From: Bacteroidales bacterium | GTDB taxonomy: Bacteria > Bacteroidota > Bacteroidia > Bacteroidales > JAFGHD01 | Assembly: GCA_016939365.1 (NCBI GenBank) | Contig: JAFGHD010000152.1 | Span: forward strand, 1-47,084 | Reading direction: 5' to 3' | Length of the DNA: 47,084 nucleotides | In this document: in pieces, positions 4,994-41,755 of the stretch | Numbering within the stretch: position 1 is the first letter of the stretch | How the letters are laid out: each line of letters begins with the position of its first letter | Translations under genes and position numbers: made by a program | Notes under the pieces: model-generated | What the model was told of the DNA's origin: nothing | The model's database searches: none | The model's input: only the letters and a program-made list of their open reading frames with translations

Positions 4994-7930
4994 ATGAAAA
5001 AGCTGATATCCGTTATTCTGGTTCTGTTCACCGGTGCCCATCTTCTTTCACAGATTCCGCCTGTGTTTGACCTGAGGAATTACAATGGTAACAATTATGT
5101 GACTGCAATCAAGAATCAGCAGGGCGGTACATGCTGGACACACGGTACGATGGCCTCCATTGAAGGCAACCTTATGATGACGGGCAACTGGGCGGCTGCA
5201 GGTGAGATCGGCGAGCCCGACCTTGCGGAGTACCATCTGGACTGGTGGAACGGCTTTAACAAATACTACAACAAGGATCTGAACCCGCCGTTCAACAACG
5301 GACAGGGGCTCGAGGTGCATAACGGCGGGGACTACCGTGTATCAACCGCTTACCTTTCCCGTTGCGATGGTGCAGTCCGTGACATTGACGGTCAATCCTA
5401 TTCGGATCCCCCAGAGTATACCGACACAAGCTATCATTATTACTACCCCATGCACGTGGAGTGGTATACGGCCGGCCCCAGCCTCGAAAATATCGACCTG
5501 ATCAAGGCGAAGGTCATGGAGTATGGCGTCATGGCCACCTGCATGTGTTACGACGGGCAGTTCATCAACGGGGAGTACGAACATTACCAGCCTCCCACGA
5601 GTACGCTGGATCCCAACCACTCGGTGGCCATCATCGGGTGGGACGACAGCCGGGTGACCCAGGCCCCTCTTCCCGGAGCATGGCTCTGCAAAAACAGTTG
5701 GGGAACCTGGTGGGGCAACCAGGGTTATTTCTGGATCTCTTATTACGACAAACATGCCTGCCAGAACCCCGAGATGGGAGCTGTCTCATTCCAGGATGCC
5801 GTATACCTTCCCTTCGAAAAGGCATATTACCATGACTACCATGGATGGAGGGACACCCTGAAATTTGCATCGGAGGCATTCAATGCCTTTACGGCTGAAG
5901 CCAATGAAATCATCACCGCGGTGAATTTTTTCACCGCTGCTGAGAATGTGGATTACGCTGTCAAGATATATGACCGTTATGAGAGTGGCGATCTGCTCGA
6001 TCTGCTGGGTGAAAAAACGGGCTCATTTGAGTATTCCGGTCTGCATACGGTGCTCCTTGATATGGGGATTAACATCACTCAGGGCGACGATTTCTTTGTG
6101 TATCTGTACTTGTCCGACGGGGGTATCCCCTATGACAGGACCTCTGAAGTGCCTGTATTACTGGGTGCCAGTTACCGGACCGTGGTACCGTCCACGGCCG
6201 GTCCGGGAGAGAGTTATTACAGTGACGGTAGGGGTTGGGTCGATTTCTATGACTACAACGACCCATCCGGTTACCAGCATACCGGCAACTTCTGCATCAA
6301 GGCGCTGACAGGTACCCCGGCCGGTCTCCCTTCCAGCTTCGACCTGAGGGATTATAACGGGGAGAACTTCGTACCATCCGTCAAGAACCAGACGGGAGGT
6401 ACATGCTGGACTCATGGGGTCATGGCCGCCATCGAGGGCAACCTGATGATGACCGGCTCCTTCATTGACACCCTGTATGATGATGAGCCCAACCTTGCGG
6501 AATACCATCTTGATTGGTGGAACGGTTTCAACGAGTATTTCAATGATGATCTAGAGCCGCCGTTCAACAACGGTCAGGGACTGGAAGTTCATATGGGCGG
6601 GGACTACCGTGTGGCCTCGGCATACATCGTTCGTGGAGAGGGCGCGGTTTACAGCCCGGATGCCAATGATGAGACTGAGTATGACGACAACTGGTACGAT
6701 GATACTCCCGACCGGTTCAATGAAGATTTCAGCCTGTACTATCCACGGCAGATCGAATGGATGGTGGTCGGAGAGAACCTGGAAAACATCGATCTGATCA
6801 AGACAAAGATCATGACGAAGGGAGTGATGGGCACATGCATGTGCTACAGCAACTCCTTCATCAATGGGGAGTATGAACACTACCAACCTCCAACGAGCAC
6901 CCAGGATCCCAATCATGCCATCGCCATCATCGGATGGGACGACGACCGCGTGACACAGGCACCCCAACCGGGCGCATGGCTATGCAAGAACAGCTGGGGA
7001 TCCGGCTGGGGAATCGGCGGCTTTTTCTGGATCTCTTACTACGACAAACACTGCGGCCACCACCCGGAAATGGGTGCGATCTCCTTCCAGGATGTGGAAC
7101 CTTTACAATACAACCGGTTCTTCTATCACGATTACCATGGATGGCGGGATACAAAAGCAGATATCACGGAAGCGCTCAATGCCTTCATGGCGAATGCAGG
7201 CGACACGATCCTCGCTGTCAGCTTCTTCACAGCGGTTGACGGAGCAGATTTCACAGTGAAGATCTATGATGATTTCGACGGCACAACACTTTCCGGAGAG
7301 TTGTCCTCCATGACCGGGCAGGCCGACCATTACGGATTCCATACGGTCGACCTGAACAGTCAGGTTATTTTCGGTCAGGCAGATGATTTCTTTATCTATC
7401 TGGAACTCTCAGACGGAGGGCATCCCTACGACCGGACCTCAGAGGTACCGGTGCTTCTGGGAGGCGATTCCCGCGTCGTGGTCCCGTCTGCGGCGAGCCC
7501 GGGAGAGAGCTATTACCACGACGGCAAGGGCTGGAACGACTTCTACTACTACAACGACCCTTCAGGGTACCAGAATACAGGCAACTTCTGCATCAAGGCG
7601 CTGGGGAACGGCGACCCGGTGACTGGAACACCTGAAGATGAATCGAAAAACCCGTTCCGTATCGGTCAGAATTACCCGAATCCGTTCAGGGAATCAACGA
7701 CTATTGCCTTCTCGCTGGACGAACCGGCAAAGGTGCGTATCACCGTCACCGATCTGGCCGGTCGTTTAGTAGCAGTACCAGTGGACGGATTTTACCAGAC
7801 CGGCGATTACCGGATCGAATGGGATGGCCGCACAGCCGGCAGTCAGGAGCTGAATCCGGGTATTTACCTTTACAGCATCGGGATCAACGGCAGGACGATG
7901 CAAAGCAGACAGATGCTTAAAGTCGATTAA
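4994..7930 (+). CDS. Secreted T9SS cargo protease with two tandem papain-like (C1) units
   Basis: A 978-aa protein with a signal peptide (1-19), two tandem units of about 420 aa (residues about 25-438 and 449-870), and a type A T9SS sorting domain (886-978, with NYPNPF at its start). Each unit has a C1 cysteine-peptidase domain followed by a lectin-like beta domain of the sort found after bacterial C1 peptidases. Both units keep the full catalytic set: Cys47, His209, Asn234 in the first and Cys471, His641, Asn666 in the second, each with the C-K-N-S-W-G motif and Gln before the Cys. The two are very alike, pointing to an internal duplication. The product should cross the outer membrane by T9SS and be surface-bound or released. 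The substrate is unknown. A strong terminator follows. Confidence 0.88.
5066..6309 (+). repeat. First unit of the internal protease duplication
   Basis: Codes for residues about 25-438: C1 peptidase plus lectin-like domain. It starts at V-F-D-L-R-N-Y-N-G and ends at G-N-F-C-I-K-A-L, matching the second unit at both ends. Confidence 0.8.
6338..7602 (+). repeat. Second unit of the internal protease duplication
   Basis: Codes for residues about 449-870. It is longer than the first unit mainly by an acidic insert rich in Asp, Glu and Tyr between the catalytic Cys and His (near 6655-6730). The ends match the first unit. Confidence 0.8.
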
Positions 7931-15999: not shown

Positions 16000-18900
16000 T
16001 CACCGGCAGATGATCAGTTTTTGAGTCCTCTCGGATACCAGGCCATTAAAATCCGTCACACGCAACCGGTAGATGTAGGAGCCGTTCCCGAGCCTGGCAC
16101 CATTCATTCCCGTTCCGTCCCATTCCAGGAATTCGGTTTCGATGTTCCCGGCAATGACGGAATTGGTAAAGGAAGCCACTTCCCTGCCGGCAAGGTTGAA
16201 AATATGAAGATTCACCTTCAACTGGTCGCCGGGGCGGTTGTGACGAAATGAAAACCGGGTCGAGGAGCTGAACGGGTTTGGGTAATTTCTGACGCCTGAA
16301 AGGGTTATCTCAGCCCCGGTATCGATCAGGAAAGAGACCGTGACTTCCGAAGGATTGCCATACAGATCGTATGCTTTCAGGGTGAGTTCATGCCAGCCGT
16401 CAGCAATGCCGGTCATGGGGAACACTATCCAGCCCCCCTGGTAAGAGTCCAGGTCAGGATCAAAGTATTCATTAAGCACCCATTTGTTACCGGCATCTTT
16501 ATCCAGAACGGCCGTGATGTCGCGCCCGATCTCAAGTCCCTGCCATTGGATCCCGTGATCATCCCAAAGGTACGCCATCAGGAGAGGGTCAGGATGTACC
16601 TGGTCACCGGATTGAAATTGTTTATCGTTGAGATAGAGAGTGATATCCGGGCCGGAAAGGTCTGCTTCGGGATCTGTGAGGGTGCCTCCAACAATGAATC
16701 CGTCAAAAAAGCCTCCTGCCGAGGTCATATAAAGTGAGTCATCCGCATAATAACTGACCTTTCCGGTATCAATCCCCGGCAGCAGTCCGCGGGGAATGAT
16801 GAACGAACATTCAAAATGTCCGTTGGTAACCGTTGCCTTACCCTGATGGAGCACCCGGTCGAGGGCATCAAATTCCGTGACCAGGCTGCCCATATCGTTG
16901 GCGTGGGTGATATATTCCGACGCTTTGTCAAACACCTTGATATGAAGCATGCCACAGAAATCATGTGCCGGTTGTCCCGCCTGATCCTCAATTATACCGG
17001 TCAATGTCACCTTTTGAAGCCCACTGAGGGTTTGAGTACCCTCAGAGACCTCCGAGCCATTGATTGTCAGGGTTTGAATGTTGTAGTCCGGATAATAGAG
17101 CCGGAGGGCGGGATCGCCAAGCAGCATGAAATTCCTTGTCGTCAGGCTCGAAGCCGGTTTTGAGAGCATGATCAGGTCACCGAAACGGGGCATTTCACCC
17201 CCGGTATCGTCAAAGAGATTCTCATAAAAGAGCCGGTTCAGTGAAAAGTTGGAGGAGGCATAGGCCAGCCGGGTTGTGGTAAACAAGGCAATACCTCCAC
17301 CCAGGGGATTGTGGAATACATGTTCGCCTGCCGAGGTGATCGCCGGGTTGTCAAAACGGGTGAACTCACACGTAGCCGTGATAAAGACAGGCAGCTTACC
17401 CTCATTGTCCCAGCCTGTGATATCCTGGATCTCAAGCACTTTCTCTGCAGCCCATCCCCTCTCACCGCCATGACCGATATAGTTCATCACCATGACCCCT
17501 TTTTCAACCTCCCTGTTGATATCCCTGTTTACATCTGGGTATCTGTAACCGGAGTTGGTCGAGATCTGGGTATAGGTATCGAAATATATCTTCCTGATAT
17601 CATAGGTCCGTTGATGGCGTTCCAGGTGGCGTGCAATGCTGTCGGCCTGGTCAAGATGAAGATTTCCATCCTCATCATCCGCAATGATGCAGATGTTCTT
17701 CCGCCAGTTGCCGGAATTGCTCCTGCCGGTCTCGGCATACCTGATGATCTTGTCCACAGCGGTCTGTGCCTCTTCAGCATTACGTACAGTAAGCCGGCCG
17801 ATGCCGACATCAAGCACTCCGGTACAGTCATTCCCTTCGTTTTCATCAAGGATGCCGAAGTAATCGTCGATCACATAGGATTTGGCCATGTCCAGCGACT
17901 CCCTGTTCTGAAAGGCAGGGATGAAATTCTGGTTTTGCGGCAGCCGGTCTTTCGGATCATAGGAACCGTCACCGATCAGCACCAGATACCTGGGCTCCTG
18001 TCCTGGGTAACGGACATAGAGCATCCGCATGAAATCCCTGATGGCTGTGACATCCTGTACTCCTGAGGAAAACTCGTTGTATATCTGTTCAGGTGTTATG
18101 ACAATGACATTCATTCCATCCCGTTGCCGGTGGAAATCTGCGAGCTGGAGAGCCTGGCCCATGAAGAGCGGGTGTGTCACCACCACCATTTCCGCAGGAG
18201 CGGTATGATGCAGGTTTTGATTGGGAACAGCACCCATGAATTCGGCCTTTAAAAAAGAGGAACCGTTGAAAGCCATAAATTCTCGCAGGGAATCCGTTGC
18301 CACGTTGAAGGCAAGATGGTCATTCTGAACTGTTGCTATTACCTCCGCCGGTTCGGCAGGGTTTGTGACATCCCAGACACATGCGGATGGGCCTGTATCC
18401 GCCACATGGAACCGTGTGACGTTTCCCACGCCGATGCTTCCGCTATACCTGAAGAGGGTCATTCCATCCCAGAGTTTCAGCTCACGCTCTGCATTCAAAA
18501 CAATATAATTCAGCCAACCCTCTGAAGCCTCACCTGACGGTACATATTCAAGGGTAATTTTGACATCGTCCGGTCCGGGGTAAAAAAGCACGGATTTCTT
18601 CTTGGTACGTGCATAGATTATGGAACCGGGATTAATGGGGGTGATGGTTGCCGAATCCCGAAGGACATCATCAATGCTGATATAGAAACGGCTGCTCTCA
18701 GACGATTTGCCTGCAAAATCCATTCTGGCGGTAGCCTGGGAGCCCATGACCAATCCGGGCAGATCGAAGTAAATATCATAGACAAGCTGGTCCCTGAAAT
18801 ACTCTCCGTACCATTCCTTGCCGGATTTGATGAGATTGAAATCCTCCCTGGCATGCACCGCCCAGGCGTCATATGTGCTGATCTCGTGTGTAGGTGTCAG

Positions 18901-19869
18901 GTTGGACTGGGGTATTGGCTGGATCCGTTTCCCGGCACCCAGGGAGCAGGTCAGGAAATAACAGTTTGTATCGGAATAGAGATGGCGCGTGAACTCGTAG
19001 TATCCCAGAGGGATATACCGCCACTGGTGCGGACTTTCTCCATAAAACAGGAGATAGTCTTCGGGATTGAGGACGCCGTCCAGCTCTCCATGGACCATAA
19101 TGGCCACCTCAGTAAGGTCATCCGGACGGGGCATGTTGTTGGGCTCCGGCAACATTCCGCCACCGTTCCCATATAACCTGATATTTCGCGGATCAATACC
19201 GGATGGGTCCCATCCAAAAGATATCAACTCATCGTATCCGATACGGTATATTCCGGATTTCGTGATCCCGATCCTGATCCAATTGCCTGAGGCAAGAACC
19301 GAATGGTTTGCATACTGATGGTTTTGGGCAGGCATGTGGGGTTTGGTCCGCTTGCCGGTTTTGTAGTCGAGGGTAAAGGAGATCAGCTTCTCATAGATGC
19401 CCGACCGGGGATTCAGCCTGAGCGGGATGAAAGTTACCACATCCATAGGCACCTTCCTGCGAAAATGCGTTGAGATACCGGGAACAATCAGAGTGTCGGC
19501 ATACCCTGTTTCATCAATCAGGGTGGATTCCGCGGGTGTACAGGGGAGATACACAGGATTGCGGATGTTTGCAGAGGAAAGTTGCTCATGACTGCCTGAA
19601 ACCACAGTTCTGTTAAACACGGGCAGGCCCGATCCAGGGTCGGCTACCGATCCGTCAAAAAAGAGACTGCCAGGCCATTTGCCTTCCGTTAAGTCTTCAT
19701 GAACCCAATACCAGTTCAGGTTGACGTGAACCGAGCGGGAAGTAAGCTCATCCCCTGCCGGAATGCGGAATGAGAGCAATCCCGCCAGGGCGCCGGTAAC
19801 CGTTATAAAAAAAAACCACCTGTAGCTTTTTATCATCATTGATGGATTCAATATTTGCCTGACAGGCAT
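16000..19869 (-). CDS. PorU-like type IX secretion C25 peptidase (sortase), copy 1
   Basis: PorU is the outer-membrane C25 (gingipain-like) peptidase that cuts off the C-terminal signal of T9SS cargo and joins the cargo to A-LPS. This 1289-aa protein has an N-terminal membrane/signal segment, a long beta-rich N-terminal region with Y-G-N-G-G, and the C25 domain with catalytic G-H800-G-G and T-A-T-C834. That 34-residue spacing is close to the His/Cys spacing of RgpB. It ends in a sorting-type domain from about 1190 (N-Y-P-N-P-F to the end). The start could also be the Met pair at 19839/19836. It lies 55 bases downstream of a paralogue on the same strand. Both dyad residues are kept, so it may be active. 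Which copy is the true PorU cannot be told here. Confidence 0.85.
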   Translation of the reverse strand: MPVRQILNPSMMIKSYRWFFFITVTGALAGLLSFRIPAGDELTSRSVHVNLNWYWVHEDLTEGKWPGSLFFDGSVADPGSGLPVFNRTVVSGSHEQLSSANIRNPVYLPCTPAESTLIDETGYADTLIVPGISTHFRRKVPMDVVTFIPLRLNPRSGIYEKLISFTLDYKTGKRTKPHMPAQNHQYANHSVLASGNWIRIGITKSGIYRIGYDELISFGWDPSGIDPRNIRLYGNGGGMLPEPNNMPRPDDLTEVAIMVHGELDGVLNPEDYLLFYGESPHQWRYIPLGYYEFTRHLYSDTNCYFLTCSLGAGKRIQPIPQSNLTPTHEISTYDAWAVHAREDFNLIKSGKEWYGEYFRDQLVYDIYFDLPGLVMGSQATARMDFAGKSSESSRFYISIDDVLRDSATITPINPGSIIYARTKKKSVLFYPGPDDVKITLEYVPSGEASEGWLNYIVLNAERELKLWDGMTLFRYSGSIGVGNVTRFHVADTGPSACVWDVTNPAEPAEVIATVQNDHLAFNVATDSLREFMAFNGSSFLKAEFMGAVPNQNLHHTAPAEMVVVTHPLFMGQALQLADFHRQRDGMNVIVITPEQIYNEFSSGVQDVTAIRDFMRMLYVRYPGQEPRYLVLIGDGSYDPKDRLPQNQNFIPAFQNRESLDMAKSYVIDDYFGILDENEGNDCTGVLDVGIGRLTVRNAEEAQTAVDKIIRYAETGRSNSGNWRKNICIIADDEDGNLHLDQADSIARHLERHQRTYDIRKIYFDTYTQISTNSGYRYPDVNRDINREVEKGVMVMNYIGHGGERGWAAEKVLEIQDITGWDNEGKLPVFITATCEFTRFDNPAITSAGEHVFHNPLGGGIALFTTTRLAYASSNFSLNRLFYENLFDDTGGEMPRFGDLIMLSKPASSLTTRNFMLLGDPALRLYYPDYNIQTLTINGSEVSEGTQTLSGLQKVTLTGIIEDQAGQPAHDFCGMLHIKVFDKASEYITHANDMGSLVTEFDALDRVLHQGKATVTNGHFECSFIIPRGLLPGIDTGKVSYYADDSLYMTSAGGFFDGFIVGGTLTDPEADLSGPDITLYLNDKQFQSGDQVHPDPLLMAYLWDDHGIQWQGLEIGRDITAVLDKDAGNKWVLNEYFDPDLDSYQGGWIVFPMTGIADGWHELTLKAYDLYGNPSEVTVSFLIDTGAEITLSGVRNYPNPFSSSTRFSFRHNRPGDQLKVNLHIFNLAGREVASFTNSVIAGNIETEFLEWDGTGMNGARLGNGSYIYRLRVTDFNGLVSERTQKLIICR

Positions 19870-19924
19870 CTTTCTTAAGACGTACCGTGCAGGTAAAACG
19901 TTGCGTCGCCGGTTGGGCGCAATC

Positions 19925-22900
19925 TCAACGGAGCATGATCAGTTTGCTGCGCTTTTCCGTGACGGTTCCATCCTCCATGAATGCCCTGATCCTGTAAACA
20001 TACAACCCGGATTGCAGGCGGTTACCTCCCTCATCGGTACCATCCCATGATGACGAGACAAAGCGGTACCCTCCGGTTTGACTGACCTCCCGGATGGTTC
20101 GCACCTTTCTGCCATCAATCGAATAGATCTCGATGTCCACGTCAGCTAATTGTTCGGGTTGGTTGTGCTCGAATGAAAAGACAGTGCTTTCGCTAAAAGG
20201 ATTGGGGAAATTCAGGAGTTCCTCCAGGGCGGTCTCGTCCGATCCGGCCACCACAAACTCCAGTACACCTGTGGAGGAGTTATTGTGAATGTCCCAAACC
20301 TTCAGGGTCAGGGTGTGTCTCCCGGCATCCAGGCCGAAGAACGGATACCTGATCACCCCTCCGGTATAATCATCAATGTCGGATTCATAGTAATCATTCA
20401 ACACGTAATTCCTTTGTCCGTCCACGATGGCGATAATATCATGGCCGATCCCCGTACCCGCAGTATTGATCCCGCTTTCATCCGTCAGGTATGCCAGAAG
20501 GACCGGATTTTCATCCGTGATCCCCCCATTTCTGAAGTGTTCATCATTCATGTAAAGCCGCATACCTGGCCCCTGTGAATCCGGCGAATAATTTCCGTCA
20601 TATCCCCCCATGACCACATCGAAATTGCTTCCTGCCGCATCCAGACCATCTCCTGCGGCGTAATAGCTCAGCTTCCCAAAATCGTACTGGTAAGCGATGT
20701 CACGGGGCGCGATGAAGGTAAACGACCATTTTCCGTTTGCAATAGTGGCCTTCCCTTTGAACAGGATGTTTTTCTGAATCTCGAAGGGCTTGGGAATGCT
20801 GTTGTTGGGGTCATTCCCCAGGGTGGAATAGGAAGAGGGTTTGTCGAACACGGCTGGATAAAGTATCCCGGAAAAGTCCGGCACCAGGTTGCCGTCCAGA
20901 TCATGTATCTCACCGCTGATCTTCACTGTTGACAGTGCCCTGATGGTGTCTGATGCCTGGTATAACGGCTGATCATTGATGGCAGTGGTGATGATCTGGA
21001 GTTCGGGAAGTGCGATTTTCAGTGCCGGGTCACCCAGAAGTACGAATTTCCTTCCGTTCTCGTTTGAGCCGCTGTCCATTTTAGCCAGCCGGATGATGTC
21101 GCCCATTCTGAGGTATTCATTGTTGACGCGGGTCAGGGCATAATTATAGAAACTTTTGTTCAGTCCGGCGTTGGATCCGGCATAGGTTGCCCTGGAGGTG
21201 GTGAACATGGCCACGGCTCCTCCATTCGGATTGAGGAAGACAAACTCCCCGGCGGAGATCCTGCCGGGGTCATCATACCTGGAAAATTCGCAGGTAGCGG
21301 TGACATAGACAGGCAAATGATTCCAGTTGTCCCAGGATGTTATATCGGCGATTTCCAGGACCCTTTCATGGGCCCAGCCGACCTCGCCGCCATGACCCAC
21401 ATAGTTGACGATCAGGGCTCCCCGTTCCATCCTCTTGTTGATATCTTCATTGGCTCCGGGATATTTCTCCCCTCCGGGGGTTGAAGCCTGCTGGTAGGCA
21501 TCAAGGTATATCTTATCCAAATTGAGGGAGGAATTCATAGAACTGATGAGTTGTGCAAGATCCTCGGCATCGTCGAAATGCAGGTTACTGTCCTCATCGT
21601 CGGCCACAAGGCATATGGTGTTCCTCCAGTCACCGAGAACCGGGGGCTCTTCCGAAGCATAGTGGATCACTTTGTCCACTGCATTCTTCGCTTCGGGCAG
21701 GTTTGCCACCACAAACCTGCCGATGCCAATGTCCAGGACATCATCATTGGCGGTATGGTCCAGGCAGCCATAAAAGTCATCTGTAACGTATGAGGTGACT
21801 GTATGAAGCGACTCGCTGGACTGCCAGACGGGGATAAAGTTGGTATTGTTTTTCAAACGGTTCTTCGGATCGTAGGATGCATCTCCGAAGAGAAGCAGAT
21901 AGCGAAGTTCCATTCCCGGAGTGGAATTCTCATAGAGCATTTTCATGAAATCCCGTATGGCGGTTACGTCCTGTGCTCCCGAGGAGAATTCATTATATAC
22001 CTGATCAGGCTCAACCACGGCAACATCGAGGAGGTCGATCGTTCTGTGGTAATCGGCAAGTCTTTCGGCTTCCTGCCGGAACAGGGGGTGCGTCAGGATC
22101 ACCATATCCACATCCTTCATGGCGTGCAGGTTCTGATTGGGGACGGCGCCCAGCAAAACGGGGGTGTAATAGGATGTGCCGTCGAAAGCGATGTATTCCC
22201 TGATACTGTCAGCCCCCATCCTGAATATGAATTGTCCGGATGAGTAGTAGCCCTCCACCCGCCCTGCATTGCCGGGATCGGTAACCTCCCAGACCTGCAA
22301 TGATGTTGAGGATACTCCCAGTAAAAACTCAGCGATATTTCCCGGTCCGGCAGAAACCGCATCCCTGAAGGCCATCTGCCCCCCGGGGAATGAAAGGTTT
22401 CTTCTATAGCTGATTTCCATGAAGTTGAGCCATCCCACAGATCCCGACTGGGGTTGATTATAATCGACCCTGATATTCAGCGATCCACCTGCAGGTACGA
22501 AAGTGCTACTGCCTGATGCGTTTCGGGCATAGTATGAGTTGGGTGAATTGGCAACATAATCCACAGGGATGACCATCAGGGCAGTGCTTCCGTTGTAGAA
22601 TTCAAACCGGCTTGGAATAAACGATCTGGCTGCCACTCCGGCAGTAATAACGGCCTCCTCTCCGGATGCGAGACCGGCCAGGGAGAGCGGGATATTCATA
22701 GATGTGAAGAGATCGAATTTTTCACCGTACCACTCCTTCCCCGATTTGATCAGGTTCACGCTATCGATCTCATGCGCCACAAAATCATCGAAACGGGAAA
22801 CCGTATGAGTGGCCAAACCCGTGGTCTGGGGTAACACAGTCACTCTTTTACCCGGTCCCAGGTCTGAGGTGATGAAATAGAAGGCCTGATCGGAATAGAG

Positions 22901-23725
22901 GTTCTTTTTATGCCTGAAAACTCCGTTCAACCCATCAAAATACCAGGAGACAGTGGATTCACCAAAGAATAGGACATAATCACCCGGATCAAAACGGCCA
23001 TCCTCCTCACCATACACCCAAACGGCCAGTTCCCTCAGGTCATCGTGCCGGAATGAAGTGGCAGGTTCGGGCAGCATGGCACCACCGTTCCCGTACACCC
23101 GGATATTATGCGGATCCAGTGATCCGGGGGACATGCCGAGGTTCTCAATGTCCTGATAGGTAATCCGGTGAACACCCCGGTTCCCGACAGATATCCTGTA
23201 CCACTTGCCTCCGGAGAGCACTGATGAGCCCGTATAATTACCTGATTTTACCATGGAAGCTTGCCGCCCTGTATAGGTCACCCGGATATCAAACTGCACC
23301 AGCTTTTCCATAAAACCCGTGAGGGAATTCATTCTGAACGGAAGGAACTTTACTGAAATAAGGGGCAGCTTGCGGTTATAAACGATCTGATGATCCACCC
23401 GTACTTCATCTGTGGGAATTTGCGAAGGTGAAAGGGTATAATTCCCTGCCTGCACAATGGTTTCGAAAATCATGCCTGCCAACTCCACCTGGATTGCCTG
23501 TTCAGGATAGTCATATGGAAGGAATTCACTGAACCAGGGAAGGAAAGCATGATCCCGTTCATGGACCGCTCCGGCAAATGACGGCAGATAAAAATAACGG
23601 CCGTCGGCATCCATCGAATATGTATCGTTCCAAGAAAGGGTCCGGTAATGACTCACCTCCTGCGGGAAGGCGCAGAACGTCCAGAAAATAACAAATATGG
23701 ACAGGATGGCACGTTTCATCATCAT
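19925..23725 (-). CDS. porU: PorU-like type IX secretion C25 peptidase (sortase), copy 2
   Basis: A 1266-aa paralogue of the next gene, with the same domain order: a signal peptide (about 1-22, cut after C-A-F-P-Q), a beta-rich N-terminal region containing Y-G-N-G-G, the C25 peptidase domain with G-H778-G-G and T-A-T-C812, and a C-terminal sorting-type domain that starts L-N-F-P-N-P-F. The catalytic residues sit 34 apart, as in copy 1. It is the first gene of the pair and faces porP/sprF and gldJ across a 200-base divergent gap. In several Bacteroidota porU, porV and gldJ are neighbours (from memory), so one of these two is very probably the genuine sortase. The symbol is given to this copy only because it lies nearer gldJ. 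Confidence 0.85.
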   Translation of the reverse strand: MMMKRAILSIFVIFWTFCAFPQEVSHYRTLSWNDTYSMDADGRYFYLPSFAGAVHERDHAFLPWFSEFLPYDYPEQAIQVELAGMIFETIVQAGNYTLSPSQIPTDEVRVDHQIVYNRKLPLISVKFLPFRMNSLTGFMEKLVQFDIRVTYTGRQASMVKSGNYTGSSVLSGGKWYRISVGNRGVHRITYQDIENLGMSPGSLDPHNIRVYGNGGAMLPEPATSFRHDDLRELAVWVYGEEDGRFDPGDYVLFFGESTVSWYFDGLNGVFRHKKNLYSDQAFYFITSDLGPGKRVTVLPQTTGLATHTVSRFDDFVAHEIDSVNLIKSGKEWYGEKFDLFTSMNIPLSLAGLASGEEAVITAGVAARSFIPSRFEFYNGSTALMVIPVDYVANSPNSYYARNASGSSTFVPAGGSLNIRVDYNQPQSGSVGWLNFMEISYRRNLSFPGGQMAFRDAVSAGPGNIAEFLLGVSSTSLQVWEVTDPGNAGRVEGYYSSGQFIFRMGADSIREYIAFDGTSYYTPVLLGAVPNQNLHAMKDVDMVILTHPLFRQEAERLADYHRTIDLLDVAVVEPDQVYNEFSSGAQDVTAIRDFMKMLYENSTPGMELRYLLLFGDASYDPKNRLKNNTNFIPVWQSSESLHTVTSYVTDDFYGCLDHTANDDVLDIGIGRFVVANLPEAKNAVDKVIHYASEEPPVLGDWRNTICLVADDEDSNLHFDDAEDLAQLISSMNSSLNLDKIYLDAYQQASTPGGEKYPGANEDINKRMERGALIVNYVGHGGEVGWAHERVLEIADITSWDNWNHLPVYVTATCEFSRYDDPGRISAGEFVFLNPNGGAVAMFTTSRATYAGSNAGLNKSFYNYALTRVNNEYLRMGDIIRLAKMDSGSNENGRKFVLLGDPALKIALPELQIITTAINDQPLYQASDTIRALSTVKISGEIHDLDGNLVPDFSGILYPAVFDKPSSYSTLGNDPNNSIPKPFEIQKNILFKGKATIANGKWSFTFIAPRDIAYQYDFGKLSYYAAGDGLDAAGSNFDVVMGGYDGNYSPDSQGPGMRLYMNDEHFRNGGITDENPVLLAYLTDESGINTAGTGIGHDIIAIVDGQRNYVLNDYYESDIDDYTGGVIRYPFFGLDAGRHTLTLKVWDIHNNSSTGVLEFVVAGSDETALEELLNFPNPFSESTVFSFEHNQPEQLADVDIEIYSIDGRKVRTIREVSQTGGYRFVSSSWDGTDEGGNRLQSGLYVYRIRAFMEDGTVTEKRSKLIMLR

Positions 23726-23925
23726 TTCCCTTTTTGTTGCAACATTAGGTTTTTTCCTGATCCCTTAGGAGGTTTGGCATGTAAATCATGCCCGGTTTTT
23801 TGACCGGGAAGATCCCTGCTCCGTTTTATTTACAGTCTCCTGGAAGGTTGATGCTCCTCTTATCTCCCTGGCGAAACTATTTTAATCTGAAAAACGTTAC
23901 ACTACATAACATATTGTCTTATTTG

Positions 23926-24987
23926 ATGCATCATACCCACAGGACAGGCTCTACAATCCGCCATCAAATTCAGGATCATACGCCAATCATTTACAAAAAA
24001 ACCTGCTGGTGGTGCATTTTGTTCATTTTCATGCTTTCCGCAGGTGTCCTGAGGTCACAGGATCCCATTTACAGCCAGTTTTATGCAAACCCGTTGTATT
24101 TGAATCCGGCGCTGGCCGGCACCGGTGACTGTGCCCGTTTCATTGCGAATGCGCGTCAGCAATGGCCATCCCTGCCCGGCAGCTGGCTTCAGTTTTCAGG
24201 GTCATTCGATCATTTCGTGAAACCTATAAAGGGAGGGGTGGGTTTGCTCATACACAATGACCAGATGGGTGTTGCGGCAATCAATACACTCAGGATCAGC
24301 GGCATATACTCTTACCACCTGGATATCTCACGAACAACCAGTCTGCGTGCGGGTTTTGAAGTGGGCATGCATCAACAGCGCCTGAAATGGGAAGAGATGG
24401 TTTTCCCGGATATGATCGATTCCAACACAGGATCGGTCAATCCTTCCTCTGAAGCCTTACCTGATCATACCAGTGTTACTGTACCAGATTTTTCCATTGG
24501 GTTCCTTGGCGGATACAGGAAGATACTGTTCGCAGGAATAGCAGCCCATCACCTGGCGCAGCCAGATCTCTCCTGGTATGAGAACTCAGACGCCAGCCCC
24601 CTGTATATGAAGCTCACAGCACATGCGGGAGCAGAGATCCTTCTGGCCGAGAGAAGCTACGGCCATGACAGTTACACATTTACGCTTTCACCCAACGTAC
24701 TTTATCAGTACCAAAGGAATGCAAGGCAGCTGAATGTGGGTTTTTACCTGACCCGCCAGCCCCTTACAGGAGGAGTCTTTTACAGATACAGCAGGTCGAA
24801 TCCAGACGCTGTGGTGTTCATGCTGGGCTGGAGTCAGAAAAAAATCCAGGTGGGATACAGTTATGATGTAACCTTATCCCGATTACAGAGTACAACAGGG
24901 GGTGCACACGAAATATCACTCAAGCTGTTGGTATTTTGTGATAAAAAATGGGGAAAGCCAGGAGCAATAAAATGTCCGGAATTTTAG
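23926..24987 (+). CDS. Type IX secretion system PorP/SprF-family outer-membrane protein
   Basis: A 353-aa protein from the ATG at 23926. Signal-like hydrophobic residues (about 27-44) end in L-R-S-Q, followed by the family hallmark D-P-I-Y-S-Q-F-Y-x-N-P-L-Y-L-N-P-A-L-A-G. Strand-rich sequence to the C-terminus includes the R-Q-Q-W-P block. PorP/SprF proteins are outer-membrane barrels; members such as SprF help secrete type B cargo such as SprB, and PorP belongs to the core machine. The frame stays open upstream to 23788, but that part does not look like a secreted N-terminus. gldJ follows with its own promoter. Here it occupies the place where porV often lies. Confidence 0.87.
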   Translation: MHHTHRTGSTIRHQIQDHTPIIYKKTCWWCILFIFMLSAGVLRSQDPIYSQFYANPLYLNPALAGTGDCARFIANARQQWPSLPGSWLQFSGSFDHFVKPIKGGVGLLIHNDQMGVAAINTLRISGIYSYHLDISRTTSLRAGFEVGMHQQRLKWEEMVFPDMIDSNTGSVNPSSEALPDHTSVTVPDFSIGFLGGYRKILFAGIAAHHLAQPDLSWYENSDASPLYMKLTAHAGAEILLAERSYGHDSYTFTLSPNVLYQYQRNARQLNVGFYLTRQPLTGGVFYRYSRSNPDAVVFMLGWSQKKIQVGYSYDVTLSRLQSTTGGAHEISLKLLVFCDKKWGKPGAIKCPEF

Positions 24988-25015: not shown

Positions 25016-26482
25016 ATGAAATACTACGGCATCATCCCGGCGATATTACTGCTTATGGCGGTATTTCTTGGATCATGTGCCAAGCAAAAATCGGCCACAA
25101 CAGGTTGGGAGTACAATAATCCCAAGAATGGCGGATTCCAGGTAACCAGCTACATGGGGCAGGCTGCCGGACCGGGTCTTGTCTTTATTGAGGGAGGCAC
25201 CTTCACGATGGGTGCTACTTACGATGATTACCAGTATGACTGGCACAATTACCCGCGGCGGGTTACGGTCAGGTCGTTTTACATGGATGAGACCGAGGTG
25301 GCCAACGTCGATTATCTGGAATATCTTTACTGGTTGAACAGGGTTTTTGGCACGGATTATCCGCAGGTTTACCGCAGAGCACTCCCGGATACGCTGGTTT
25401 GGAGGGATCGTCTGGCCTACAACGAACCCCTGGTGGAGCTTTACCTCCGGCATCCAGCTTATAAAGATTATCCGGTGGTGGGGGTGAGCTGGATACAGGC
25501 CACCGACTATTGTGCATGGAGGACCGACCGGGTAAATGAAAATATCCTGGTGGAACGCGGCATCCTGGATTTGGATCCGGCGCAGCTTAACGAGAATAAC
25601 TTCAACACAGAAGCATACCTGGCAGGACAGTATGAAGGCCTGGTCAACAGGAACCTGACCGACCTGAATCCCAACAGCACCGGCGAAAGACGCGTCAAGC
25701 TGGAGGATGGCATCCTGCTGCCCCGGTACCGGCTGCCTACTGAAGCCGAATGGGAATTTGCCGCACTTGGACTTGTGGGGAACACGGCTTATGAAAGGGT
25801 GATGGATCGTCGGATGTTCCCTTGGAATGGTCATTACCTCAGAACTGAAGACAAGGAATATTACGGAAGTTTCGTCGCCAATTTCAAGAGGGGCAGCGGG
25901 GACTATATGGGAGTGGCCGGCAATCTCAATGACGGAGCCGTCGGGCCTTATATGGTCGGATCATACTGGGCCAATGACTATGGCCTGTTCAACATGGGTG
26001 GTAATGTGGCCGAATGGGTAGCCGACGTCTACCGGCCTCTTAGCTACGAAGACGTCTCGGACCTCAATCCATACAGGGGCAACTTGTTCATGAGAAAAGT
26101 CAGGGACTCGGAAGGCCTGATCGCTGAAAAAAATGAATTCGGTAAACTGAACTACGAAACTGAACCGGTGGACGAACTCGTCAACCGTAGAAATTACAGA
26201 AAGCCTGACAATATCAACTATCTCGATGGGGACTTCCAGTCTGCCATTGACGAGGATAAATGGTTGAAGAGCGACACGGCAGAAACACGGAGCATGTACG
26301 ACTACTCGGTCACATCCATGATCAACGACAAGGCCCGCGTCTACAAGGGTGGTTCATGGAAGGATGAAGCCTACTGGATGATCCCGGGGACTCGGAGATT
26401 CCTGGATGAGAACCTCTCCACGGATTATATCGGATTCCGTTGCGCCATGGACCGGGTGGGAGATCAGCAGTTTGGCTATTGA
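25016..26482 (+). CDS. gldJ: GldJ-like T9SS/gliding lipoprotein, formylglycine-generating-enzyme fold
   Basis: A 488-aa lipoprotein with a signal peptide and lipobox L-G-S-C21. The body is an FGE-sulfatase (sulfatase-modifying factor) fold: F-I-E-G-G-T-F-T-M-G near residue 60, M-D-E-T-E-V-A-N-x-D-Y, V-G-V-S-W-I-Q-A-T-D-Y-C-A-W, R-L-P-T-E-A-E-W-E-F-A, N-M-G-G-N-V-A-E-W-V, Y-K-G-G-S-W, and I-G-F-R-C-A. In Bacteroidota GldJ and GldK share this fold as non-enzymatic parts of the T9SS/gliding apparatus. The N-terminal G-W-x-Y-N-x-P-x-N-G-G-F motif and the murF neighbourhood favour GldJ over GldK (from memory). In Flavobacterium GldJ is needed for motility and for stability of GldK. Whether this organism glides cannot be told. 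Confidence 0.85.
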   Translation: MKYYGIIPAILLLMAVFLGSCAKQKSATTGWEYNNPKNGGFQVTSYMGQAAGPGLVFIEGGTFTMGATYDDYQYDWHNYPRRVTVRSFYMDETEVANVDYLEYLYWLNRVFGTDYPQVYRRALPDTLVWRDRLAYNEPLVELYLRHPAYKDYPVVGVSWIQATDYCAWRTDRVNENILVERGILDLDPAQLNENNFNTEAYLAGQYEGLVNRNLTDLNPNSTGERRVKLEDGILLPRYRLPTEAEWEFAALGLVGNTAYERVMDRRMFPWNGHYLRTEDKEYYGSFVANFKRGSGDYMGVAGNLNDGAVGPYMVGSYWANDYGLFNMGGNVAEWVADVYRPLSYEDVSDLNPYRGNLFMRKVRDSEGLIAEKNEFGKLNYETEPVDELVNRRNYRKPDNINYLDGDFQSAIDEDKWLKSDTAETRSMYDYSVTSMINDKARVYKGGSWKDEAYWMIPGTRRFLDENLSTDYIGFRCAMDRVGDQQFGY

Positions 26483-26625: not shown

Positions 26626-27915
26626 ATGGATATCGATGCGCTTTACAGATGGTTCCTAAGCTATCCACGGATATCCACAGATACCCGTAAACCACTGGAA
26701 AACAGCATTTTTTTCGGGATCAGGGGCGAGCATTATAACGGAAACACATTTGCTGCAGAGGCCCTTCAAAAGGGAGCCGTCCTGGCAGTCGTGGATGAGC
26801 CAGGTCATGCTTCCACTGACAGGACATTTCTTGTCAGGGATTCTACAGATACCTTACGTCAACTGGCCAGACATCACAGGTCAGGTATCCGTTCGGTGGT
26901 CATAGCCATCACCGGCACCAACGGCAAAACCACCACCAAAGAATTGACGGCCAGAGTGCTTTCACGGAGATACGCCACAGTCGCCACCCAAGGAAACTTC
27001 AACAACCATATCGGGGTACCGCTGACCCTGCTGTCACTGAAAGAGGATACCGAGATGGCAGTGATCGAGATGGGGGCCAATCATCCCGGAGAGATCGCCT
27101 CGCTTTGTGAAATGGCGCAGCCCGACTTCGGACTGATCACCAACATCGGGAAAGCACACCTGGAAGGATTCGGAGGCTTTGAAGGAGTCGTCCGGGCAAA
27201 AGCGGAGCTATATCATCACCTGAATGATCATAAAAGGAAGATCTTCATCAACACGGACCATGAGGTATTAAACCGGATCGCCGGTCAGGCGGACCGGATT
27301 ACTTACGGTACCGGCAGCGGGGTTTTCTGCAGGGGAACCCTTGAAGATATCCATCCCCATCTCAAAGTCAGGGTGGAGACGGGGCACGAAACAGCCCTGA
27401 TACAAACCCGGATCACCGGGGCATATAATCTTGAGAACATCACCGCTGCCGCATGCATCGGAAGCTATTTCGGCATACCCCCCGGGCAGATCGCCGATGC
27501 CATTGAAGGATATATCCCTGAAAACAACCGTTCGCAGGAGATCCGGACCGGTAAAAACCACATCATAATGGATGCATACAATGCCAATCCTTCCAGCATG
27601 TCAGCGGCCATCGGGAACTTTATCCGTTATCCCACCGGTTCCCGGATGGTCATCCTTGGGGAGATGCTGGAGCTGGGTGAGGCAAGCCGTGCGGAGCATA
27701 CGTCACTTGTCGGCGAACTGGAAAGGCTTGGATTCCGTGAAGTCATCCTGGTTGGCCAGGCTTTCAGGGAGTCTGCAGCCTGCAAGGGTTACCAGTGGTT
27801 CCCGGACACTGACACTTTACTTGGATGGATCCGGGAACATCCTGTCACAGATCACACCATCCTGATCAAGGGGTCACGAAATAACAGGCTGGAGCGGCTC
27901 ATCGGGTTTCTATAA
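26626..27915 (+). CDS. murF: UDP-N-acetylmuramoyl-tripeptide--D-alanyl-D-alanine ligase
   Basis: MurF uses ATP to add D-Ala-D-Ala to the UDP-MurNAc-tripeptide, the last cytoplasmic step of the peptidoglycan precursor. The 429-aa protein has a short N-terminal UMP-binding domain with I-S-T-D-T-R-K, the central ATPase domain with G97-T-N-G-K101-T-T-T-K-E and N-F-N-N-H-I-G-V-P-L, E-M-G-A-N-H-P-G-E-I, and the C-terminal domain with D-A-Y-N-A-N-P and L-G-x-M-L-E-L-G. Length and motif order are normal. anmK follows after nine bases, making a cell-wall pair. The 143-base gap from gldJ shows no terminator. Confidence 0.96.
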   Translation: MDIDALYRWFLSYPRISTDTRKPLENSIFFGIRGEHYNGNTFAAEALQKGAVLAVVDEPGHASTDRTFLVRDSTDTLRQLARHHRSGIRSVVIAITGTNGKTTTKELTARVLSRRYATVATQGNFNNHIGVPLTLLSLKEDTEMAVIEMGANHPGEIASLCEMAQPDFGLITNIGKAHLEGFGGFEGVVRAKAELYHHLNDHKRKIFINTDHEVLNRIAGQADRITYGTGSGVFCRGTLEDIHPHLKVRVETGHETALIQTRITGAYNLENITAAACIGSYFGIPPGQIADAIEGYIPENNRSQEIRTGKNHIIMDAYNANPSSMSAAIGNFIRYPTGSRMVILGEMLELGEASRAEHTSLVGELERLGFREVILVGQAFRESAACKGYQWFPDTDTLLGWIREHPVTDHTILIKGSRNNRLERLIGFL

Positions 27916-40113: not shown

Positions 40114-41475
40114 CTAATTCGCCCGGATGATCATTACCGAGCCTTTATAGACGTCATCGCGGTATTTCCCGGTGCATTTCAGGATGTAGAAATAGGTCCC
40201 GTCGGCAAGGTTTTCTCCGGTCCAGTCATTCTGGTAGTTGTCCACTTCGTACATTTTCTGGCCCCAGCGGTTGAATATGACCAGTGTATTGCCAAGGTAG
40301 TAGTCCTCAAGTTTGGGAATATCTCCTGAAGCGGCTTTCAGATACCCCTCACCACCCGTTCCCCCGTTACCGGATTCTCCTTCATCAATGTCGATCACGA
40401 AGGCATCATTCACCTGGTCGCCGTTGGGTGTGAATACGTTCGGGACCTTCAGCTTCACGGGTTTCACCTCAACGATCATGGAATCGGCGGCCATGCAATT
40501 ATAAAAGGTGGTAAAATCAAAGGCCACGTCGAAGGTGCCGACATCGGAATAGGAATGGGTAGGCGTGGTAAGTATGGATGAGGTCTCATCCCCGAAATTC
40601 CATGTCCAGTTGATCAGCTGAAAGGTATCCACAGCAAGCGAGTCATACAGGGGATTCTCAAAATAGAAGGTCAATGTCGGATTTTGAAGGTACACGACAT
40701 TCTTACCCTCATCATCTGTTTTATCCGTGTAGAGTTCAATATCCGGGATGCGATGGGCCTTAACCTGGAAATCATGTTTCCGGGTACAACCCAGGGTGTC
40801 GGTGACGGAAACGGAGTAATCCCCGTTTTGCAGGCCGCCCACACGAGTGGGATCATAAATATCCTGCAGTCCGGCAGACCATTCATATTCCAGGGGCTCA
40901 TAAGATCCGGAGGCAACCACCTGCATCTGCGCCACTTTTTCATCGGGGCATCCCATGGAGAGCTGGATCACGGTATCCACTGTGATCATGGCCTCCACCT
41001 CCACCCTGATGCTGTCGGTACAGTAGTTCACCGGGGTGGCAGGTTCGGTGATTGTGGCGAAAAAAGTCGTGCTCTCACGCGGACTCGTCACCAGTGTATC
41101 TGATGCGACTCCATCAGGTTCCCAGAAGGTGGCAAAACCTGTGGTATCCACATGGAACAATACCGTATCGCCGCAGTTCAGCGTAGTATCGGACTGGTAG
41201 ATCCGTACCTGTATGATGGCAACATATACACTGCCTGTCACATCTATCGTATCCCCGCTCTTCGCCTGAACTGAATATGACCCGGTTTCGTACACCCAGA
41301 TGCCTTCTGTCGCAGCCCCCGTGCTCCACAGGTAGAAATCAAATCCTGTCCCCGCCTGCAGAAGCAGTGAATCCACCTTGCAGGAGCGCACGGTATCGGG
41401 CAATATCAGTTCCTGGGTGAACAATGCACCCGGCAGGAAATAGAGACACATAAAAATGACCCGTAACCTCCCCAT
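40114..41475 (-). CDS. T9SS type B cargo: PKD-containing protein with CHU_C C-terminal domain
   Basis: A 453-aa secreted protein from the ATG at 41475, which gives a signal peptide (M-G-R-L-R-V-I-F-M, cut after A-L-F-T-Q). The middle is beta-rich with Ig/PKD-like units, including W-N-F-G-D-E-x-S and H-S-Y-S-D-V-G-T-F-D-V. The last 110 residues or so are the gliding-motility-associated C-terminal (CHU_C, type B) sorting domain: V-P-N-V-F-T-P-N-G-D, then I-F-N-R-W-G-Q-K-M-Y, W-x-G, and D-G-T-Y-F-Y-I-L. Type B cargo is usually handled with an SprF-type partner, and a PorP/SprF gene lies at 23926. Adhesin or structural surface role is likely. Confidence 0.85.
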   Translation of the reverse strand: MGRLRVIFMCLYFLPGALFTQELILPDTVRSCKVDSLLLQAGTGFDFYLWSTGAATEGIWVYETGSYSVQAKSGDTIDVTGSVYVAIIQVRIYQSDTTLNCGDTVLFHVDTTGFATFWEPDGVASDTLVTSPRESTTFFATITEPATPVNYCTDSIRVEVEAMITVDTVIQLSMGCPDEKVAQMQVVASGSYEPLEYEWSAGLQDIYDPTRVGGLQNGDYSVSVTDTLGCTRKHDFQVKAHRIPDIELYTDKTDDEGKNVVYLQNPTLTFYFENPLYDSLAVDTFQLINWTWNFGDETSSILTTPTHSYSDVGTFDVAFDFTTFYNCMAADSMIVEVKPVKLKVPNVFTPNGDQVNDAFVIDIDEGESGNGGTGGEGYLKAASGDIPKLEDYYLGNTLVIFNRWGQKMYEVDNYQNDWTGENLADGTYFYILKCTGKYRDDVYKGSVMIIRAN

Positions 41476-41484
41476 AAGTGGCTT

Positions 41485-41492
41485 CAAAAATA
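41485..41492 (-). promoter_or_regulatory. Bacteroidota -7 box of the CHU_C gene
   Basis: The minus strand reads TATTTTTG, an exact TAnnTTTG match, ending nine bases before the ATG at 41475. It supports that start over an in-frame upstream Met at 41565, and implies a very short leader. Confidence 0.45.
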
Positions 41493-41755
41493 CACCTTTT
41501 CGGTTTTCTATGAGAGTTCTGTATCCGTATCCCTCTTTTTCACCCATCATTTCATCAACCCACACATAACGTCAAAGAATCCTTTTAATTTTCCGTCCTC
41601 CTTCGCAACTGCCAAAATTGCAGAAAATGATTGCTACATGATTCACTATCAGGCCATTTTGTCATTTCATTCCTGTTGTCCAATGTCACTGTTGCCGTTT
41701 CCGGACATCCCGGGGAGAATGGCAGCCTGTTTGCCGGTAACATCGAAAAACGGAT

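Follow-up and report, generated by a model that had tools for sequence, protein, structure and literature searches.

The window analysed here, a stretch of 47,084 nucleotides (contig JAFGHD010000152.1 of assembly GCA_016939365.1, from a Bacteroidales bacterium of the JAFGHD01 lineage), carries two adjacent genes for PorU, the C-terminal signal peptidase/sortase of the type IX secretion system (T9SS). The gene that is transcribed first and adjoins porP is referred to as porU1 (protein U1) and the gene in second position as porU2 (protein U2). The two genes form a pair of long standing that has been kept by selection, and both products are predicted to be active PorU sortases that would divide the processing or anchoring of type A cargo between them, a reading to which we give a probability of about 60%.

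Both open reading frames are intact and encode proteins of 1266 (U1) and 1289 (U2) amino acids with 43% identity to each other (Table 1). For U2, the ATG at M11/M12 may be the actual start, as it would give a better fit to a signal peptide. The absence of a terminator-like site on the minus strand in the 55-bp gap between the genes is consistent with their co-transcription. The PorU equivalog model NF033707 (cut-off 420 bits) was matched over its full length by both proteins, and PorU of Porphyromonas gingivalis (PG0026; PDB 6za2) could be aligned with both over about 1100 residues (E about 1e-140), with the same domain order, the Cys/His dyad and Arg722 present in each copy; in contrast to 6za2, both window proteins carry an N-terminal extension of about 160-190 amino acids before the aligned part. 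The N-terminal module NF052318 (PorU long form, cut-off 40 bits) scored 45.1 bits in U1 and 27.9 bits in U2. AlphaFold models of both cores (mean predicted local distance difference test score, pLDDT, 88-89) had 6za2 as top PDB match (E 1e-76 and 3e-82), with a global template modelling (TM) score of only about 0.5 and a root-mean-square deviation of 18, which can probably be explained by differing domain orientations. Judged by these matches, U1 and U2 are both genuine, complete PorU-family C-terminal signal peptidases/sortases, in agreement with the preliminary description of this DNA, in which two adjacent full-length PorU-like sortases had been proposed.

The catalytic residues could be assigned by alignment with H657 and C690 of the P. 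gingivalis enzyme. The spacing from His to Cys is 34 in both copies (H778/C812 in U1, H800/C834 in U2), the value noted at first sight of the sequence. Both copies also have the equivalent of P. gingivalis Arg722, which was proposed as a sortase-type Arg (PMC4560394). The preliminary description had further seen sorting-type domains at both ends. For U1 this holds, since its tail exceeds the cut-offs of both generic models (TIGR04183, cut-off 23 bits; FlgD_ig, 31.3 bits, cut-off 27), while the tail of U2 is recognisable but stays below both (20.5 bits for FlgD_ig); it is nonetheless covered to its last residues by NF033707 and by the fold model. The block equivalent to the latency beta-hairpin region of P. 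gingivalis PorU (approximate position) is kept in both copies, with a length of 39 amino acids in 42 of the 45 U2 proteins and of 37-40 in U1.

A tree of 182 PorU proteins was constructed, as the preliminary description had called for a tree that separates recent duplication from old paralogy. The second-position genes (adjacent, main group) formed a U2 clade of 45 entries with a support of 99, the exceptions within it being the last gene of a three-gene row, one gene split between contigs and one divergent third copy (genome G001). The first-position genes formed a companion clade of 57 with subgroups mirroring those of the U2 clade. The U2 group was recovered with supports of 97/96 and 86/93 in two slower trees, for which a site-heterogeneous model with posterior mean site frequencies (PMSF) was used, and the window copies stood in separate groups in both. 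When the window copies were forced to be sisters, the log-likelihood difference was 204 and this pairing was rejected by the approximately unbiased (AU) test (p 1.4e-109). Distances among U1 proteins correlated with those among U2 proteins (Mantel r 0.75, 0 of 2000 permutations). The trees, the AU test and the Mantel correlation show the pair as the product of one old tandem duplication in an ancestor of a sub-group of the Bacteroidales, after which the copies were inherited jointly. Independent additional PorU copies are also present elsewhere, for example in G003, G022 and G036. The placement of the second copies of G004 and G046 and of the third copy of G001 is unsure because of long branches. 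This third copy of G001, a genome of the same genus, is a divergent PorU-like protein of 983 amino acids (G001:C170; L102:9736-12687), apparently shorter at the C-terminus, in which Ser takes the position of the catalytic Cys while the His and the RAT motif are kept; it is possibly an inactive sortase-like protein.

The tandem arrangement is not restricted to the window. When named genomes were searched with a profile, 77 loci were obtained, and many of them have the order murF-gldJ-porP followed by the divergently oriented porU1-porU2-porV. About 42 tandem loci keep this gene order, with or without porV, and in 40 of 42 the gap between U1 and U2 is at most 131 bp or the genes overlap; because of this recurrence, the arrangement in the window is far beyond chance. 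The layout of murF-gldJ-porP divergent from porU recurs throughout the order, with porV usually after the last porU. In the genome of the window (G000) porV lies away from the pair on another contig, and in the closest relatives, L106 and L180, it was not found within 10 kb downstream of the pair. Among 149 genomes sampled evenly across the order (G000-G148), 125 have PorU, and tandem genes were scored in these from match coordinates; the distribution check suggested earlier thus gave tandem porU in 25 of the 125 PorU-bearing genomes, in about 20 families, including G047, where the pair is split at contig ends. The labels of the named tandem loci are Bacteroidales, Bacteroidetes, Bacteroidota or similar, with one Lentimicrobiaceae and one Marinilabiliales. 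Two further observations concern copy number. Locus L161:5751-17500 has three porU in a row before porV, one U1 and two closely related U2, and broken or partial PorU frames, several of them within a single genome, were seen in G031 (C113, C60, C135) and G048 (C9), which could be pseudogenes or assembly effects.

Two other identities were considered for the window proteins and rejected. In the trees both copies group with PorU sequences and not with the C25 cargo proteases, and none of the other C25 proteins of the same genome scores above 64 bits with the PorU model; the earlier claim of two sortases, which was to be dropped if one copy grouped with such proteases, therefore survived. Gingipain-like C25 cargo proteases, which are type A cargo, share the C25 catalytic fold and the Cys/His dyad with U1 and U2, but gingipains are without the sortase-type Arg (PMC4560394), which both copies have. 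The NCBI family NF052324 ('putative type IX secretion system sortase PorU2') is likewise a second PorU-related protein in T9SS genomes, but it is a distinct family of about 1650 amino acids, and the window proteins are, with 198.6 and 176.7 bits, far under its cut-off of 450. NF052324 was present in 29 of the 149 sampled genomes. It was never found together with the tandem pair (0 of 25 tandem genomes, 24 of the remaining 100 genomes with PorU; Fisher p 0.004, ignoring relatedness), and in several genomes its gene adjoins a PorV-like gene.

Both copies were shown to evolve under purifying selection, with omega of about 0.06-0.12 in pairs with estimable synonymous divergence, which is near saturation. 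The Cys/His dyad is intact in 57/57 U1-clade proteins and in 43/43 complete linked U2 proteins. The U2 branch is the longer one in 16 of 17 loci. As a two-column scan with 80% thresholds gave only two sites, a graded measure was used, by which 1230 sites were ranked for how strongly U1 and U2 differ. The three highest ranks went to U1 K893/U2 N913 and to the two residues that immediately follow the sortase Arg. At the latter, all 46 partnered U1 proteins have R[A/P/L]T and 38 of 44 U2 proteins have RLA, while outgroup PorUs mostly have RLV, RLA or RVV; this comparison shows the U2 motif to be close to the ancestral Arg-Leu-Val/Ala and the U1 motif to be a fixed change. The K893 position is Lys in 43 of 46 U1 proteins, against Asn or His in U2. 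Since the sequence alignment to gingipain R ends at the catalytic Cys, the divergent sites were numbered by P. gingivalis Arg722 and no claim on a specificity pocket is made for them. The strongly diverged sites are divided unevenly: eight U1-derived against two U2-derived within the catalytic domain, and three U1-derived against 18 U2-derived outside it (Fisher p 0.0007). Within U2, divergence from outgroup PorUs is highest in the C-terminal domain (Jensen-Shannon divergence 0.210, against 0.159 in U1). A single porU with the U1 signature (RAT, K) lies directly before porV in L118, L155, L160 and L169, so that at least two lineages have probably lost U2; among the loci examined, none showed clearly that U1 had been lost.

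The partners of the two sortases could be located in the window genome (PorV on C83, PorQ on C141, PorZ on C124). One PorZ and one PorQ over cut-off were present in all seven tandem genomes tested, as in single-PorU genomes, and no tandem genome had more than one strong PorV (>350 bits); additional PorV-like barrels are not confined to tandem genomes, being present in single-PorU genomes as well. We infer that a single PorV, PorQ and PorZ per genome would serve both copies. The window genome encodes at least 133 type A and 6 type B tails. Tandem genomes had 88-215 type A tails in a first look, and single-PorU genomes reach 289-364 candidates. Type B tails were fewer in tandem genomes (median 7 versus 13 in single-PorU genomes; Mann-Whitney p 0.006 for 30 sampled genomes, ignoring relatedness). 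The window itself also encodes a 978-aa protein (4994-7930, plus strand) with a PorU/type A-like tail (34 bits to residues 1000-1083 of NF033707), likely T9SS cargo, and a 483-aa protein (40114-41565, minus strand) with a type B tail below threshold (TIGR04131 31.6 bits, cut-off 35).

The idea that the two copies handle cargo separately, raised in the preliminary description, is favoured by the copy-specific signatures and by the uneven division of the diverged sites between the catalytic domain and the rest. Under such a division of labour, U1 and U2 would both be secreted, each keeping its own C-terminal domain, and both would dock on the single PorV-PorQ-PorZ attachment module. Each would remove the C-terminal domain of type A cargo and transfer the acyl-enzyme to an amine acceptor. 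U1, which is never seen lost, would act as the core enzyme and have a changed active-site loop, while U2 would be an accessory enzyme with ancestral active-site residues and different docking, lost in some lineages. U2 could handle a subset of type A cargo or use a different acceptor, leading to another glycolipid anchor or to release. A more specific version, which we consider less likely than not, is that the copies use different acceptors or give different outcomes on the shared module, so that attachment or release of cargo would be set by the PorU used and encoded by the residue pair that follows the sortase Arg.

Some results weigh against a division of labour. The loss of U2 in some lineages shows that it is dispensable there. 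No second dedicated PorV, PorQ or PorZ for U2 was found in the tandem genomes tested. Tandem and single-PorU genomes show no difference in the number of type A cargo proteins (p 0.50), so that cargo load offers no explanation for the pair. The Fisher p for the domain asymmetry of the diverged sites is optimistic, since sites and sequences share ancestry. Finally, no cultured carrier was identified, every named tandem locus being from a metagenome-assembled genome.

Other explanations were weighed against these data. The pair could be a regulatory one: U1 would join U2 in a latent dimer, in which the catalytic domain of either partner is blocked by the latency hairpin of its counterpart, and the second copy would mainly time the activity of the first. 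In P. gingivalis, PorU dimers are held inactive by a beta-hairpin (PMC10202324), the entry 6za2 is titled dimeric latent PorU, and the retained hairpin block, strict genomic pairing and co-inheritance point the same way; however, the full Cys/His/Arg site of all complete linked U2 proteins would be superfluous for a pure regulator, and U1 persists alone after loss of U2, which makes this explanation unlikely. It is quite doubtful that two equivalent sortases are kept for dosage where type A cargo is abundant: tandem genomes are rich in type A tails, but single-PorU genomes reach higher numbers with alike distributions, and 43% identity with fixed active-site signatures is not what interchangeable copies would show. 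U2 might also be a surface maturation protease, for example for removal of N-terminal prodomains from cargo, and not a C-terminal-domain sortase. A role in removing prodomains has been attributed to P. gingivalis PorU (PMC10202324), and the strong divergence of the U2 C-terminal domain would fit; yet U2 retains the sortase Arg and the ancestral residues of the active site more faithfully than U1 does, and it scores 1239 bits with NF033707, so that we regard this role as improbable.

A split of type A and type B cargo between the copies, which the preliminary description had suggested, is very improbable. Both tail types are encoded in the genome, but tandem genomes have fewer type B tails, and complex formation, secretion and anchoring of type B cargo were reported to be independent of PorU (PMC9143113), which together argue against it. 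A recent duplication or an assembly artefact is hardly credible as the source of the pair, even though the window comes from a draft genome of 197 contigs: the copies are too different for this, the arrangement is repeated in about 42 loci and in G104, a genome of about 50 contigs, and recent duplication is refuted by the AU test.

The neighbouring genes of the window (Table 1) follow the layout seen in the order, with a porP/sprF homologue divergent from porU1, then gldJ and murF, the conserved flank of the porU cluster.

Table 1. Positions of the porU pair, its functional sites and the adjoining genes in the window.
Feature	Position	Strand	Remarks
porU1 (U1)	19925..23725	-	PorU sortase, U1 clade; NF033707 1314.9 bits; PDB 6za2 E 8.6e-140; signature R845-A846-T847 + K893
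U1 catalytic His778 (P. gingivalis H657)	21392..21394	-	Alignment
U1 catalytic Cys812 (P. gingivalis C690)	21290..21292	-	Alignment
U1 Arg845 (P. gingivalis Arg722, sortase-type Arg)	21191..21193	-	
U1 residues 846-847 (Ala-Thr)	21185..21190	-	Directly after sortase Arg; among best U1/U2 discriminators
U1 latency beta-hairpin-equivalent block, residues 960-1000 (approximate)	20726..20848	-	Alignment to P. gingivalis PorU
U1 C-terminal domain (type A sorting/PorV-docking)	19928..20230	-	TIGR04183 27.4 bits
U1 stop to U2 start gap	19870..19924	-	55 bp; no minus-strand terminator-like site inside
porU2 (U2)	16000..19869	-	PorU sortase, U2 clade; NF033707 1238.6 bits; PDB 6za2 E 1.2e-140; signature R867-L868-A869 + N913
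U2 catalytic His800 (P. gingivalis H657)	17470..17472	-	Alignment
U2 catalytic Cys834 (P. gingivalis C690)	17368..17370	-	Alignment
U2 Arg867 (P. gingivalis Arg722)	17269..17271	-	
U2 residues 868-869 (Leu-Ala)	17263..17268	-	
U2 latency hairpin-equivalent block, residues 979-1019 (approximate)	16813..16935	-	Alignment
U2 C-terminal domain	16003..16305	-	Most diverged U2 domain versus single-copy PorUs; TIGR04183 19.5 bits, below cut-off
porP/sprF homologue	23788..24987	+	TIGR03519 221.8 bits
gldJ	25016..26482	+	TIGR03524 467 bits, cut-off 458
murF	26626..27915	+	TIGR01143

To our knowledge, PorU is the only T9SS sortase described so far. No report of tandem or paralogous PorU was found in the literature searched, subscription journals and preprints being outside its coverage, and so the conserved arrangement with two sortases seems to be undescribed, although the enzyme family itself is known. 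One PorU per system is given in published accounts (PMC5445135, PMC10202324, PMC9143113), in line with the preliminary description; P. gingivalis, Tannerella forsythia and Flavobacterium johnsoniae have one porU each (PMC5445135), whereas here there are two paralogues with distinct active-site signatures. The neighbourhood of porV is shared by P. gingivalis and most tandem loci. The choice of PorU between released and anchored cargo has been stated as unresolved (PMC10202324), and a PorU pair on one attachment module, with fixed differences beside the sortase Arg, would offer a built-in comparison for the choice of substrate and acceptor. Genome surveys in which one PorU per T9SS is assumed undercount an arrangement that is common in the Bacteroidales, found in about 25 of 125 PorU-bearing genomes.

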